This document shows positions 7,294 through 12,521 of a stretch of 64,000 nt of DNA, one piece after another. A model generated the notes under the pieces. It was not told where the DNA came from and did no database searches. It saw only the letters and a list, made by a program, of their open reading frames with translations. The stretch lies in contig NZ_MWQE01000001.1 in the NCBI RefSeq assembly GCF_002210285.1, forward strand, positions 372,001 to 436,000. Direction: 5' to 3'. The position numbers were made by a program, and so were the translations under genes. Every line of letters begins with the position of its first letter. The first letter of the stretch is position 1. This stretch comes from Fibrobacter sp. UWR2. Lineage in GTDB: Bacteria > Fibrobacterota > Fibrobacteria > Fibrobacterales > Fibrobacteraceae.

Positions 7294-7570
7294 GGTACAA
7301 ACCTCCATACATTCGCTCTTAATATATTCGCTTGCGAAAAAAGAAGGTGTTTTTTTTCAGGATTAGGTGTTTACAGGGGGAAACGAGTGATTTTTCGCAT
7401 ATTTGGAAAGGTTGTTTTGGGTGGAAAATTCCCAAAAAATGTGATTTTTTGTGATTTGTGTACGGAAAATCGGCAAAGAGGTAAAATGAATTTAGGCTTA
7501 CTTCGGCCGTGAGGAAATAAACGTATATTTATGTTATAGAAAGTTCCTGGGGATCCAAAAAGGAGAAAAA
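7294..7570. other. Divergent intergenic region, GH5 / rSAM-lipoprotein locus
   Basis: 277 AT-rich bases with no credible gene. It holds a small palindrome TTCGCTTGCGAA (7327-7338) next to a TATATT stretch on the GH5 side, and a GTATATTTATG promoter-like core at ~7522 followed by AAAAAGGAG before the first lipoprotein gene. The island element seen at 25.6-43.3 kb is absent here. Confidence 0.5.
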
Positions 7571-8056
7571 ATGTTCTACAGACACTGGAAAAAGATTGCA
7601 CTTGCGCTGACCGGATTATTGTGGGCCAGCTGTGGGGACGATGGATCGAAAGACGATACAGCTGTGTTTGCTCCCGAGTATGGCGTTCAGGTAATGCCAT
7701 CCGACTCTATAGGGGGTGCAGTTTGCCTTTATGGGGTAGAGGCTCCAGTCATTATCGAACAGGGAGTCCTTTGCTACAACGATACCGCAACGAACGATTC
7801 GGGCAAAGTGTTCAAGATTATCGACTGCACCGATGGCAACAAGTACCTTCGAGATCCGTCTGATGCCGGTTACGAGGGTGTTGAGCTTCCCGAAGGAGTC
7901 CAGATATTCGCCCCGGAGGCCGGCAGCGGAAAAGCCATAAACTGCACAAGCGACCAAGATATCTGCATCGAACGGAATCCGGAAAAACCGATTGAACAGG
8001 ATTCTCTTGCTGGCTGCCACCCCATCATCGAGTGCCCGGAAAAGACAGAACAGTAA
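7571..8056 (+). CDS. Cys-rich lipoprotein 1 of an rSAM/lipoprotein locus
   Basis: 161 residues. The signal peptide MFYRHWKKIALALTGLLWAS ends at lipobox Cys21. The mature part has six more cysteines and two Tyr-Gly motifs (APEYGVQ, and VCLYGVEAP). A block FKIIDCTDGNKYL resembles a block in lipoprotein 3. The export signal is almost the same as in the next two genes, while the mature parts differ, which suggests three substrates of one maturation pathway. The likely modifying enzyme is the radical SAM protein at 9153. No enzymatic motif is visible, so its final role (adhesin, signalling, redox) is unknown. Confidence 0.75.
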   Translation: MFYRHWKKIALALTGLLWASCGDDGSKDDTAVFAPEYGVQVMPSDSIGGAVCLYGVEAPVIIEQGVLCYNDTATNDSGKVFKIIDCTDGNKYLRDPSDAGYEGVELPEGVQIFAPEAGSGKAINCTSDQDICIERNPEKPIEQDSLAGCHPIIECPEKTEQ

Positions 8057-8093
8057 CTAACCATTAGTTACTAGATTAAATTTAGGAGAAAAT

Positions 8094-8729
8094 ATGTTCT
8101 ACAATCATTGGAAAAAAATTGCGCTTTCGCTGACCGCCCTGTTCTGGGCTGGTTGCGAAGACTCGGCCTCATCGGCCGTATGCCTTTATGGTCCCGACCC
8201 CAATTATAGCAGCGCCACCGAAAACCCGGTTTCCAGTTCCAGCGAGGCTTCACAGCCCGAAAGTTCCAGCAGTTTCGACCTAGAAAGAATGGCGCTCGAT
8301 TACGGCATAGATATAGACTTCACATGCTCCCCCATGGATTCTAGTGTTGCGTATTTCGCTCAGGATTACAGCGCAGATACCAAGAAGATGTGGAAAGAGG
8401 AAGAGGCCAAGCACGATGCCGTAGACAAGATAGACTCCATCACGCCGACCTTGGCAGAAACGCCCTTGTGCCTCGAACATTTGCGCATGGAACTAGACAG
8501 GTTCGTGGCCCTTTACGGCGCCCCGACCATCATCAATAACGCGGTAGACTCTTGCAGCGACGGCACCATCAGGCCCAGCGAGGAATATGCCAAGTTCCTC
8601 AAGATGCAGGAAGAGTGGGAAGCGAACAAGCCTGCCCTGGAAGAAGAACTCCAGAAGGTCTACGAAGACAAGATGAAGGAAATCGAAGAACGGATTAACA
8701 AGTGTCTTTCCGGCGAGGCTGATAAGTAA
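8094..8729 (+). CDS. Cys-rich lipoprotein 2 of an rSAM/lipoprotein locus
   Basis: 211 residues. Signal MFYNHWKKIALSLTALFWAG ends at lipobox Cys21. Next comes VCLYGPDP, the same Tyr-Gly motif as in lipoprotein 1, a Ser-rich linker (VSSSSEASQPESSSS), a second Tyr-Gly motif (LDYGIDIDF), scattered cysteines, and a highly charged C-terminal helix (~residues 155-205, EEWEANKPALEEELQKVYE) that could form a coiled coil. It lies 37 bases after lipoprotein 1 with its own GGAG site, and the next gene follows after two bases. It is probably co-transcribed with its neighbours. Confidence 0.75.
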   Translation: MFYNHWKKIALSLTALFWAGCEDSASSAVCLYGPDPNYSSATENPVSSSSEASQPESSSSFDLERMALDYGIDIDFTCSPMDSSVAYFAQDYSADTKKMWKEEEAKHDAVDKIDSITPTLAETPLCLEHLRMELDRFVALYGAPTIINNAVDSCSDGTIRPSEEYAKFLKMQEEWEANKPALEEELQKVYEDKMKEIEERINKCLSGEADK

Positions 8730-8731
8730 TC

Positions 8732-9115
8732 ATGTTCAAGAAACACTGGAAAAAAATCCTTTTAAGCCTGTGCGCTCTGTTCTGGGGCGGTTGTAGTGAC
8801 GATTCGTCCAGCGACAGCCCTTCAGCCGGGAAAAAACTGGTCGCATGCGAACTCGACCAGATATGTCCCGAATATGGCATTTTCTACAATTGCGAGAACG
8901 ACGAAGACAGGATTTCCGGGAACTTCGAAAACTGCACAGTGTCGTACCCGGCATGCACAGACACGTACTATTGTGAAGACGACGTCACCTGTTTCCAATC
9001 GACCGACGACGAAACGAAAACTTTCGACTGTCGCGATGAAAAGGACAACAAGACTCTCTACACTGAAGACGAATTCAAGTCGAAATACTACGTGGATGGA
9101 CAACGCATCCATTAA
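8732..9115 (+). CDS. Cys-rich lipoprotein 3 of an rSAM/lipoprotein locus
   Basis: 127 residues. Signal MFKKHWKKILLSLCALFWGG leads to lipobox Cys21, a short Ser/Asp linker, then a compact domain with nine cysteines, including the pattern CELDQICPEYGIFYNC and CTDTYYCEDDVTC. The paired spacing suggests disulphides or thioether crosslinks. PEYGI matches the Tyr-Gly motif in lipoproteins 1 and 2. ATG 8732 starts two bases after the previous stop codon. The radical SAM gene begins 37 bases downstream. Confidence 0.75.
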   Translation: MFKKHWKKILLSLCALFWGGCSDDSSSDSPSAGKKLVACELDQICPEYGIFYNCENDEDRISGNFENCTVSYPACTDTYYCEDDVTCFQSTDDETKTFDCRDEKDNKTLYTEDEFKSKYYVDGQRIH

Positions 9116-9152
9116 TCCCTAATCACACCTCACATTTCACACTACACATTTT

Positions 9153-10229
9153 ATGCAACTCTCTCTCAAGAAGAAACTCGCTCTCGAAGCCTACCGCCTT
9201 TACCGCCACAACGAAATCAAGGCGCACCCTCTTACGTACTTTTTCTGGGAATGCACGCTCCGCTGCAACCTGCACTGTCTGCACTGCGGTAGTGACTGCG
9301 TGAAGGACGCCATCCCGGACATGCCGCGTGAAGACTTCATGAACGTGCTGGACAAGTTGGCCCCGCACATCGACCCGAAACATTTTATCGTGGTGATTAC
9401 CGGCGGTGAGCCGCTGATGCGCGCTGACCTCGAGGAATGCGGCCAGGAAATCAAGAAGCGCGGCTACCCGTGGGGCATGGTCACGAACGGGCTTGCGATG
9501 ACTCCCGAACGTTACACCAAGTTGCTGAAGGCGGGGCTTCGCTCGCTTACCATCAGCCTTGACGGACTCGAGGCGAATCATAACCATTTCCGCGGTGACC
9601 CGCATAGCTTCGAGCGCGCACTGCGTGCCATTGACATGGCTGCCCACACGCAGGGCCTCACCTTCGACGTGATGACGTGCGTGAACCGCGAGAATCTGAA
9701 GGAACTCCCGAAGATTCTCGACATGCTTTTAAAAATCGGTGTGAAGCGCTGGCGCATTGCGACCGTGTTCCCGAAGGGCCGCGCGAAGGACAATCCGCTG
9801 TTCCAGCTCACGAACCAGGAATTTCGCCAGGTGTTCGACTTTATCCACGAAGTCAAGAAGCAGAACCTCATCAACGTGAATTACGGCTGCGAAGGGTTCC
9901 TCGGGAGCTACGAGAAGGACGCCCGCAACTACCCGTTCTTCTGTCGTGCCGGCGTGAACGTGTCTTCCGTGCTCTGCGATGGCAGCATTTCTGCCTGCCC
10001 GAGCTTGCGCGGCGACTATATCCAGGGCAACATCTACAAGGACGACTTGTGGGATGTATGGCAGAACCGCTACCAGGTGATGCGCGACCGCAGCTGGGCC
10101 AAGATTGGCGATTGCAAAAAATGTAAATACTGGCGCTACTGCGAAGGCTCTAGTCTGCACCTTAGGGACGAGAAAACAAAGGAACTCGCATACTGCCACG
10201 TACAGCGTCTGGAGGATGCCGGCGCATAA
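9153..10229 (+). CDS. Radical SAM/SPASM enzyme of an rSAM/lipoprotein system
   Basis: 358 residues. The SAM-binding [4Fe-4S] motif CTLRCNLHCLHCGSDC lies at ~residues 34-49 (CxxxCxxC), with the GGEP motif at ~90 and a C-terminal SPASM region (FFCRAG, VLCDGSISACPS, CKKCKYWRYC, final YCHVQ) for extra clusters. Sequence style and neighbours match the family I recall as TIGR04133 (rSAM/lipoprotein system), partner of the TIGR04134 lipoproteins in Bacteroidetes. It likely modifies the three upstream lipoproteins before export. No clear Shine-Dalgarno sequence precedes ATG 9153 (CACATTTTATG), which suggests coupling to upstream translation or a Bacteroidetes-like start. Confidence 0.85.
   Translation: MQLSLKKKLALEAYRLYRHNEIKAHPLTYFFWECTLRCNLHCLHCGSDCVKDAIPDMPREDFMNVLDKLAPHIDPKHFIVVITGGEPLMRADLEECGQEIKKRGYPWGMVTNGLAMTPERYTKLLKAGLRSLTISLDGLEANHNHFRGDPHSFERALRAIDMAAHTQGLTFDVMTCVNRENLKELPKILDMLLKIGVKRWRIATVFPKGRAKDNPLFQLTNQEFRQVFDFIHEVKKQNLINVNYGCEGFLGSYEKDARNYPFFCRAGVNVSSVLCDGSISACPSLRGDYIQGNIYKDDLWDVWQNRYQVMRDRSWAKIGDCKKCKYWRYCEGSSLHLRDEKTKELAYCHVQRLEDAGA

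Positions 10230-12521
<2,292 letters not shown>

Follow-up and report, generated by a model that had tools for sequence, protein, structure and literature searches.

What reaction does a radical S-adenosylmethionine (SAM) enzyme carry out beside three exported lipoproteins of a rumen Fibrobacter? The question is raised by four adjacent genes in a window of 64,000 nucleotides, the whole stretch of DNA analysed (C1:372001-436000 of the 3.28 Mb genome of Fibrobacter sp. UWR2), in which three lipoprotein genes precede the gene of a radical SAM/SPASM enzyme of family TIGR04133. We consider the locus to be best explained by a splicease, which probably acts on cell-surface-bound proteins and installs ketoamides in them. 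The family, the gene order, the near-universality and enrichment of an x-Tyr-Gly (xYG) site in the partners of the enzyme and the kinship of the enzyme with spliceases were computed here, and the chemistry is argued from them.

Three lipoproteins and a TIGR04133 enzyme

Four plus-strand open reading frames (ORFs) follow one another at positions 7571-10229, with intergenic gaps of 37, 2 and 37 bases. Their features are as follows, with model quality given as predicted local distance difference test (pLDDT).

7571..8056, + strand: lipoprotein 1, 161 aa, HWKK signal peptide, lipobox Cys21 (signal-peptide profile E 1.5e-14; 29 homologs among array lipoproteins)
7676..7684, + strand: xYG site E-Y-G (APEYGV) of lipoprotein 1, from sequence
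7727..7735, + strand: xYG site L-Y-G (VCLYGV) of lipoprotein 1, from sequence
8094..8729, + strand: lipoprotein 2, 211 aa, HWKK signal peptide, lipobox Cys21 (profile E 7.3e-16; 47 homologs among array lipoproteins)
8184..8192, + strand: xYG site L-Y-G (VCLYGP) of lipoprotein 2, from sequence
8298..8306, + strand: xYG site D-Y-G (ALDYGI) of lipoprotein 2, from sequence
8511..8519, + strand: xYG site L-Y-G (VALYGAP) of lipoprotein 2, from homolog alignment
8732..9115, + strand: lipoprotein 3, 127 aa, Cys-rich, HWKK signal peptide, lipobox Cys21 (profile E 6.4e-14; 44 homologs; AlphaFold model, mean pLDDT 75.5)
8870..8878, + strand: xYG site E-Y-G (CPEYGI) of lipoprotein 3, from sequence and AlphaFold model
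9153..10229, + strand: TIGR04133 radical SAM/SPASM enzyme, 358 aa, proposed splicease (TIGR04133 624 bits; PF04055 and PF13186; model pLDDT 91)

The lipoproteins begin, in order, with MFYRHWKKIALALTGLLWASC, MFYNHWKKIALSLTALFWAGC and MFKKHWKKILLSLCALFWGGC, and all three have a signal peptide of the type KHWKKI...FW..C. The original prediction, made from the DNA letters, had described three adjacent lipoproteins with a near-constant signal peptide and Tyr-Gly (YG) motifs, and this was borne out by the ORFs, the N-termini and the YG counts of two, three and one. Its account of the mature parts as Cys-rich holds strongly for lipoprotein 3 but not for lipoprotein 2, in which cysteines are sparse. 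It had also named TIGR04134 as the lipoprotein family with which such enzymes pair in Bacteroidetes, and the present lipoproteins do not belong to it: hidden Markov model (HMM) searches gave no match of lipoproteins 1-3 to that family at E<=10 (cut-off 39.8 bits) and no Pfam family at E<=1, including Nif11 and nitrile-hydratase-type leaders.

The enzyme itself had been named correctly. It scored 624 bits against TIGR04133 (cut-off 425) over model positions 1-350 of 350, which makes it a full member of the pair TIGR04133/TIGR04134 (rSAM_w_lipo / lipo_with_rSAM, NCBIfam), a widespread orphan pair of gut and rumen bacteria. The radical SAM CxxxCxxC motif is formed by C38/C42/C45, and both PF04055 and the SPASM domain PF13186 were above cut-off. 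The four genes would probably constitute one operon-like block of three export-bound substrates and their maturase. A scan for sigma-70-type promoters over 7300-10400 gave no match and is uninformative.

The x-Tyr-Gly site in the partners of the enzyme

Among 154 distinct Fibrobacter lipoproteins gathered near TIGR04133 enzymes by signal peptide alone, 151 contain YG, with 432 pairs compared with about 80 expected from their Tyr and Gly content. The consensus around the site is [P/A]-x-Y-G-[V/I/A/C/P]-[P/V], as in PLYGVP: position -2 prefers Pro or Ala, position -1 (x) Leu, Lys, Glu, Ala or Asp, position +1 Val, Ile, Ala, Cys or Pro, and position +2 Pro or Val. A Fibrobacter locus has between one and nine such lipoproteins in its array, and each protein contains at most eight xYG; these proteins are built of Ser-rich linkers, in which xYG cassettes are inserted, and a separate Cys-rich domain. 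In the family of lipoprotein 2, the L, Y and G of VALYGAP are each present in 96-98% of homologs and are among the top-conserved mature positions, and CPEYGI of lipoprotein 3 lies in a predicted loop between predicted strands 37-44 and 51-54.

The same genome contains a second TIGR04133 gene, at C3, which scored 598 bits and whose product is 82% identical to the window enzyme. One lipoprotein lies upstream of it, with IAPKYGV-like repeats and six YG in total, and this protein had no match to TIGR04134 at E<=0.1. When the genome was scanned with a profile built from 12 signal peptides (threshold E<=0.05), seven genes were found: the four linked genes, at E 6e-14 to 7e-16, and, with weaker scores, three unlinked genes, two at C10 (G000:C10:119802-120964) and one at C2 (G000:C2:53224-53274). 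The product of each unlinked gene is a lipoprotein that contains xYG (VAVYGVFY, VPLYGIVY and TALYGVYV), and unlinked lipoproteins found by the profile in other Fibrobacter genomes likewise carry it (e.g. VALYGVQA, VCLYGTFS and DTLYGIRP). Because the unlinked lipoproteins were found by signal peptide and not by xYG, they are an independent check of the pairing of signal and motif; those at C10 and C2 are possible substrates in trans. A chance grouping of the signal peptide is excluded, since the profile finds just seven genes in the whole genome. A DNA pattern for HWKK returned four true matches and one chance match in a cytosolic protein (C4), and the profile was used instead.

Of 168 Fibrobacterota genomes, 89 have a TIGR04133 gene that scores above the cut-off. 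We collected 80 loci from this phylum and another 80 by scanning GTDB genomes, and 140 of them were usable for the partner count, in which a partner was an ORF with YG at most 300 bases upstream of the enzyme gene. A YG-bearing ORF lies directly upstream in 134 of these 140 loci (Fibrobacterota, Bacteroidota, Spirochaetota and others; the automatic call at L205 is doubtful), and the six remaining loci include two arrays with YG lipoproteins farther upstream (L066, L092), two loci with the partner downstream (L098, L129) and L213. YG occurs 12.6 times per 1000 residues in partners against 2.7 in neighbouring genes in Fibrobacterota, and 11.5 against 2.5 elsewhere (about 4.6-fold), and YGxP occurs in 46 of 54 non-Fibrobacterota partners against 7 of 164 controls, both partner sets having been chosen with YG preferred, which makes the count by signal peptide alone the fairer one. 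The residue at x in immediate partners was recorded by enzyme group: Leu and Glu for the window type, Lys and Leu for the C3 type, and Glu, Leu and Met for other groups. True TIGR04134 partners, found in Bacteroidota, Treponema and four Fibrobacterota genomes, carry xYG at or just after the lipobox (CEYGTP, CEYGSP and SCYGMP in Bacteroidota and Treponema), followed in a Parabacteroides partner by carboxypeptidase-regulatory-like domains. The window system differs from that pair in that its lipoproteins are unmatched by TIGR04134 and arrayed, and in that some enzyme relatives pair with non-lipoproteins.

The last point concerns a further Fibrobacterota family (L047, L049-L051, L053-L055, L058 and L059), whose partners are secreted, lack a lipobox and carry one to four xYG. 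The original prediction had held that relatives whose enzyme lacks a lipoprotein neighbour would speak against the pairing; such relatives are found in this family, but the neighbour is still a secreted xYG protein. Accordingly, the co-occurrence that it had proposed to check in homologous loci stood for a YG-bearing neighbour and not for the lipid anchor, which is not universal. These secreted partners have the constant signal SRWS..LYSK...FALFC.ASGQ, and a C-terminal tail typical of the type IX secretion system (T9SS) was seen in the one that was scanned. In another set, L116-L119 (G061, G126, G118 and G066), the enzymes resemble TIGR04133 but score below its cut-off, at about 275 bits, and are directly followed downstream by a zinc-ribbon protein of about 260 aa with an I/L-YGPPI motif and no recognisable signal; these proteins are possible non-exported xYG substrates.

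The lipobox was therefore rejected as the defining partner feature, since one Fibrobacterota branch has secreted partners without it. Considering that xYG is kept across lipoprotein arrays, TIGR04134 proteins, secreted non-lipoproteins and zinc-ribbon proteins, the feature common to the partners in the sequences compared is xYG and not the lipid anchor. It had been foreseen that three substrates in a row in a host outside Bacteroidota would help to see what the enzyme recognises; the non-Bacteroidota host with substrate-like lipoprotein neighbours was confirmed, and the usefulness of the array is supported by xYG as the shared element. We consider that xYG is very probably the modified site. 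If xYG instead served envelope proteins as a motif for structure or sorting, the enzyme would act elsewhere, for example in forming Cys thioethers, or on an unrelated molecule. The mature-part cysteines are also highly conserved, and SPASM enzymes often form thioethers, both of which would suit such a role. However, xYG is kept in lipobox-free, Cys-poor partners, in very different folds and in predicted zinc-ribbon proteins that show no recognisable signal. Its number also varies, through inserted Ser-rich cassettes, against an unchanging Cys-rich domain, as expected for modification sites. We regard this explanation as improbable.

Some partners and genomes weigh against modification at xYG. 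Three of the 154 array lipoproteins have no YG, nor has the upstream lipoprotein of the enzyme locus L186, and G090, a Fibrobacter genome 99% complete, has partner-type xYG lipoproteins and no detected TIGR04133 gene. G090 may represent enzyme loss and a true exception, or an assembly gap, as assemblies of metagenome-assembled genomes are incomplete. The same genome would fit a fortuitous neighbourhood, in which ordinary lipoproteins stand next to an unrelated radical SAM gene. Against this are the adjacency in 134 of 140 loci across phyla, the two separate loci in the window genome and the fact that TIGR04133 is already paired with TIGR04134 lipoproteins in NCBIfam, so that we find chance adjacency hardly credible.

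Kinship with spliceases and the candidate reaction

A reaction at such a site is known. PlpX removes a tyramine unit from Xaa-Tyr-Gly, and an alpha-keto amide remains (PMC11002830; PMC10533398); the mass loss is 135.0757 Da (PMC10533398). Splicing is reported to work without a leader and inside proteins, and the reaction is already in use for protein labelling, with the tag sequence PIRPxYGLPI (PMC10533398). A passage of PMC10533398 that cites Scott et al. 2022 gives 939 splicease systems predicted by Piel and co-workers. In a Nostoc locus, the TIGR04103 enzyme scored 853 bits and the Nif11 precursor ends in IALYGLPPELF, much like IALYGPPCV of Fibrobacter. The PlpX/PlpY spliceotide systems (TIGR04103, IPR026482) resemble ours in their x-Tyr-Gly sites, several per substrate and in similar local context, and in a related enzyme with motifs in common with TIGR04133, whereas the Fibrobacter substrates are proteins of about 100-430 aa with lipoprotein signals and no Nif11 or nitrile-hydratase-like leader peptide.

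The kinship of the enzymes was judged from trees and motifs. HMM score alone was rejected as its sign, since the window enzyme scored 142.9 bits against TIGR04103, the PlpX-type family (cut-off 725 bits, not reached), and equally against heme b synthase (142.9) and TIGR04053 (141.2). Because these scores put TIGR04133 as near to the latter two as to TIGR04103, trees were built, which include a PlpX-type relative in place of PlpX itself. In a 32-sequence tree, TIGR04133 with its relatives forms a clade with TIGR04103/TIGR03913 (support 99/99), and AhbD, NirJ, NirJ2, TIGR04053, TIGR04347, MftC and PqqE fall outside. The motifs G[FY]xGxYE...R and CPSL, the latter at a SPASM cysteine, occur in TIGR04133 as well as in TIGR04103/TIGR03913, whereas the porphyrin-type and cofactor enzymes among the sequences compared lack them.

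TIGR03913 enzymes, of the GDL-motif / DUF1843 systems, are sisters of the PlpX type in the tree, and several of their partners also have xYG (KPYGVAI, QPYGAGI and MLYGGAM); these partners differ in being small peptides without export signal and not lipoproteins. Beside the PlpX/TIGR03913 clade groups another radical SAM/SPASM enzyme of two Fibrobacter genomes (L243/L264 in G129:C36 and L244/L265 in G121:C56; about 205-208 bits to TIGR03913). Directly upstream of it is a protein of 280-300 aa with 12-13 YG, mostly in KYGYP repeats (KYGYPCGTNDVNLKYGYPC...), apparently a substrate with many sites for the same chemistry.

In the AlphaFold model of the window enzyme, the closest solved folds are the peptide maturases SuiB, which forms a Lys-Trp cross-link, and SkfB, which forms a thioether; their identity to the enzyme is 17-21%, and their substrates and reactions are other ones. 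A search of PDB sequences returned distant radical SAM enzymes only. These folds would suit an enzyme that alters Tyr-Gly in some other way, for instance by cross-linking, oxidative decarboxylation, epimerisation or formation of a C-C bond at Tyr, and the universality of xYG marks the site and not the reaction. Further points count against splicing. The identity to the PlpX-type protein is about 29% only, the HMM scores equal those for non-splicease families, and four added sequences lowered the support of the joint clade to 89/78, with long branches in that tree, both trees covering only part of the SPASM maturase families. From 7571 to the next gene, which starts at 10293, no PlpY-like gene was noticed, with no search run for an RRE (recognition element of ribosomally synthesised and post-translationally modified peptides), and we infer the reaction itself from sequence. 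On the other hand, the tree position and the motifs G[FY]xGxYE and CPSL favour the splicease side. We know of no other reaction that uses x-Tyr-Gly with a free x and no other fixed residue. The prolines at -2 and +2 around xYG also resemble splicease substrates, as in the labelling tag of PMC10533398. Another reaction at Tyr-Gly is, in our view, rather unlikely, and the enzyme probably splices tyramine out at xYG, leaving reactive keto groups.

We infer a course of events as follows. The TIGR04133 enzyme would bind the lipoproteins while they are still cytoplasmic, before Sec export, and the constant HWKK signal peptide may be its binding handle, doubling as a leader. The enzyme would act at every x-Tyr-Gly, with tyramine taken out and ketoamide put in, and export, lipidation at Cys21 and display on the envelope would follow, with one to several reactive ketoamides per lipoprotein. 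The varied x (Leu, Lys, Glu, Ala and Asp) might then permit reversible covalent inhibition of proteases differing in specificity. This protease-inhibitor role, the weakest step, is suggested because x varies and because inhibition of proteases by splicease products is reported in a passage of PMC10373908 citing Scott et al. 2022; we offer it tentatively, and a fold search with the lipoprotein 3 model, which gave no inhibitor-like fold (best E 1.7), counts against it. A wider scheme is conceivable, if doubtful, in which the seven lipoproteins of this genome (three in the operon, one at C3 and three unlinked) would be spliced in cis and trans by one or two TIGR04133 enzymes, giving lipid-anchored arrays on the envelope of ketoamide beta-amino acids, differing in their side chains, that covalently inhibit rumen proteases; TIGR04134 proteins in gut Bacteroidota, and secreted proteins that lack a lipid, would then undergo the same chemistry.

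The original prediction had called the modification not known, and we found no report of it; the present analysis sharpens this to the hypothesis of tyramine excision at xYG. Among the papers searched, none names TIGR04133 or TIGR04134 and none joins a splicease with a lipoprotein, although the family may already be on the list of Scott et al. 2022. If the 939 systems include TIGR04133, the locus would add a member whose array is unusual; if they do not, the splicing of lipidated, surface-bound proteins would be new. Should the splicing hypothesis be true, the orphan pair would acquire a testable chemistry, namely backbone splicing of exported, membrane-anchored proteins at sites readable from sequence, and hundreds of natural splicing substrates with differing x residues would be at hand. 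The surface of many gut bacteria would then carry electrophilic keto groups, which might affect proteases of hosts, protists and competitors.

Surroundings of the locus

By profile matches, the four genes are flanked by a GH5 cellulase on the opposite strand and by a monomeric isocitrate dehydrogenase downstream. Nothing supported a phage or mobile origin; one partial relative was found in viral contigs (L220, 46%), and the others were weak. On a plasmid of Tropicibacter oceani (L245, NZ_CP124618), a radical SAM gene whose product groups with PlpX/TIGR03913 adjoins genes for a trypsin-like peptidase-domain protein and an M23 metallopeptidase.

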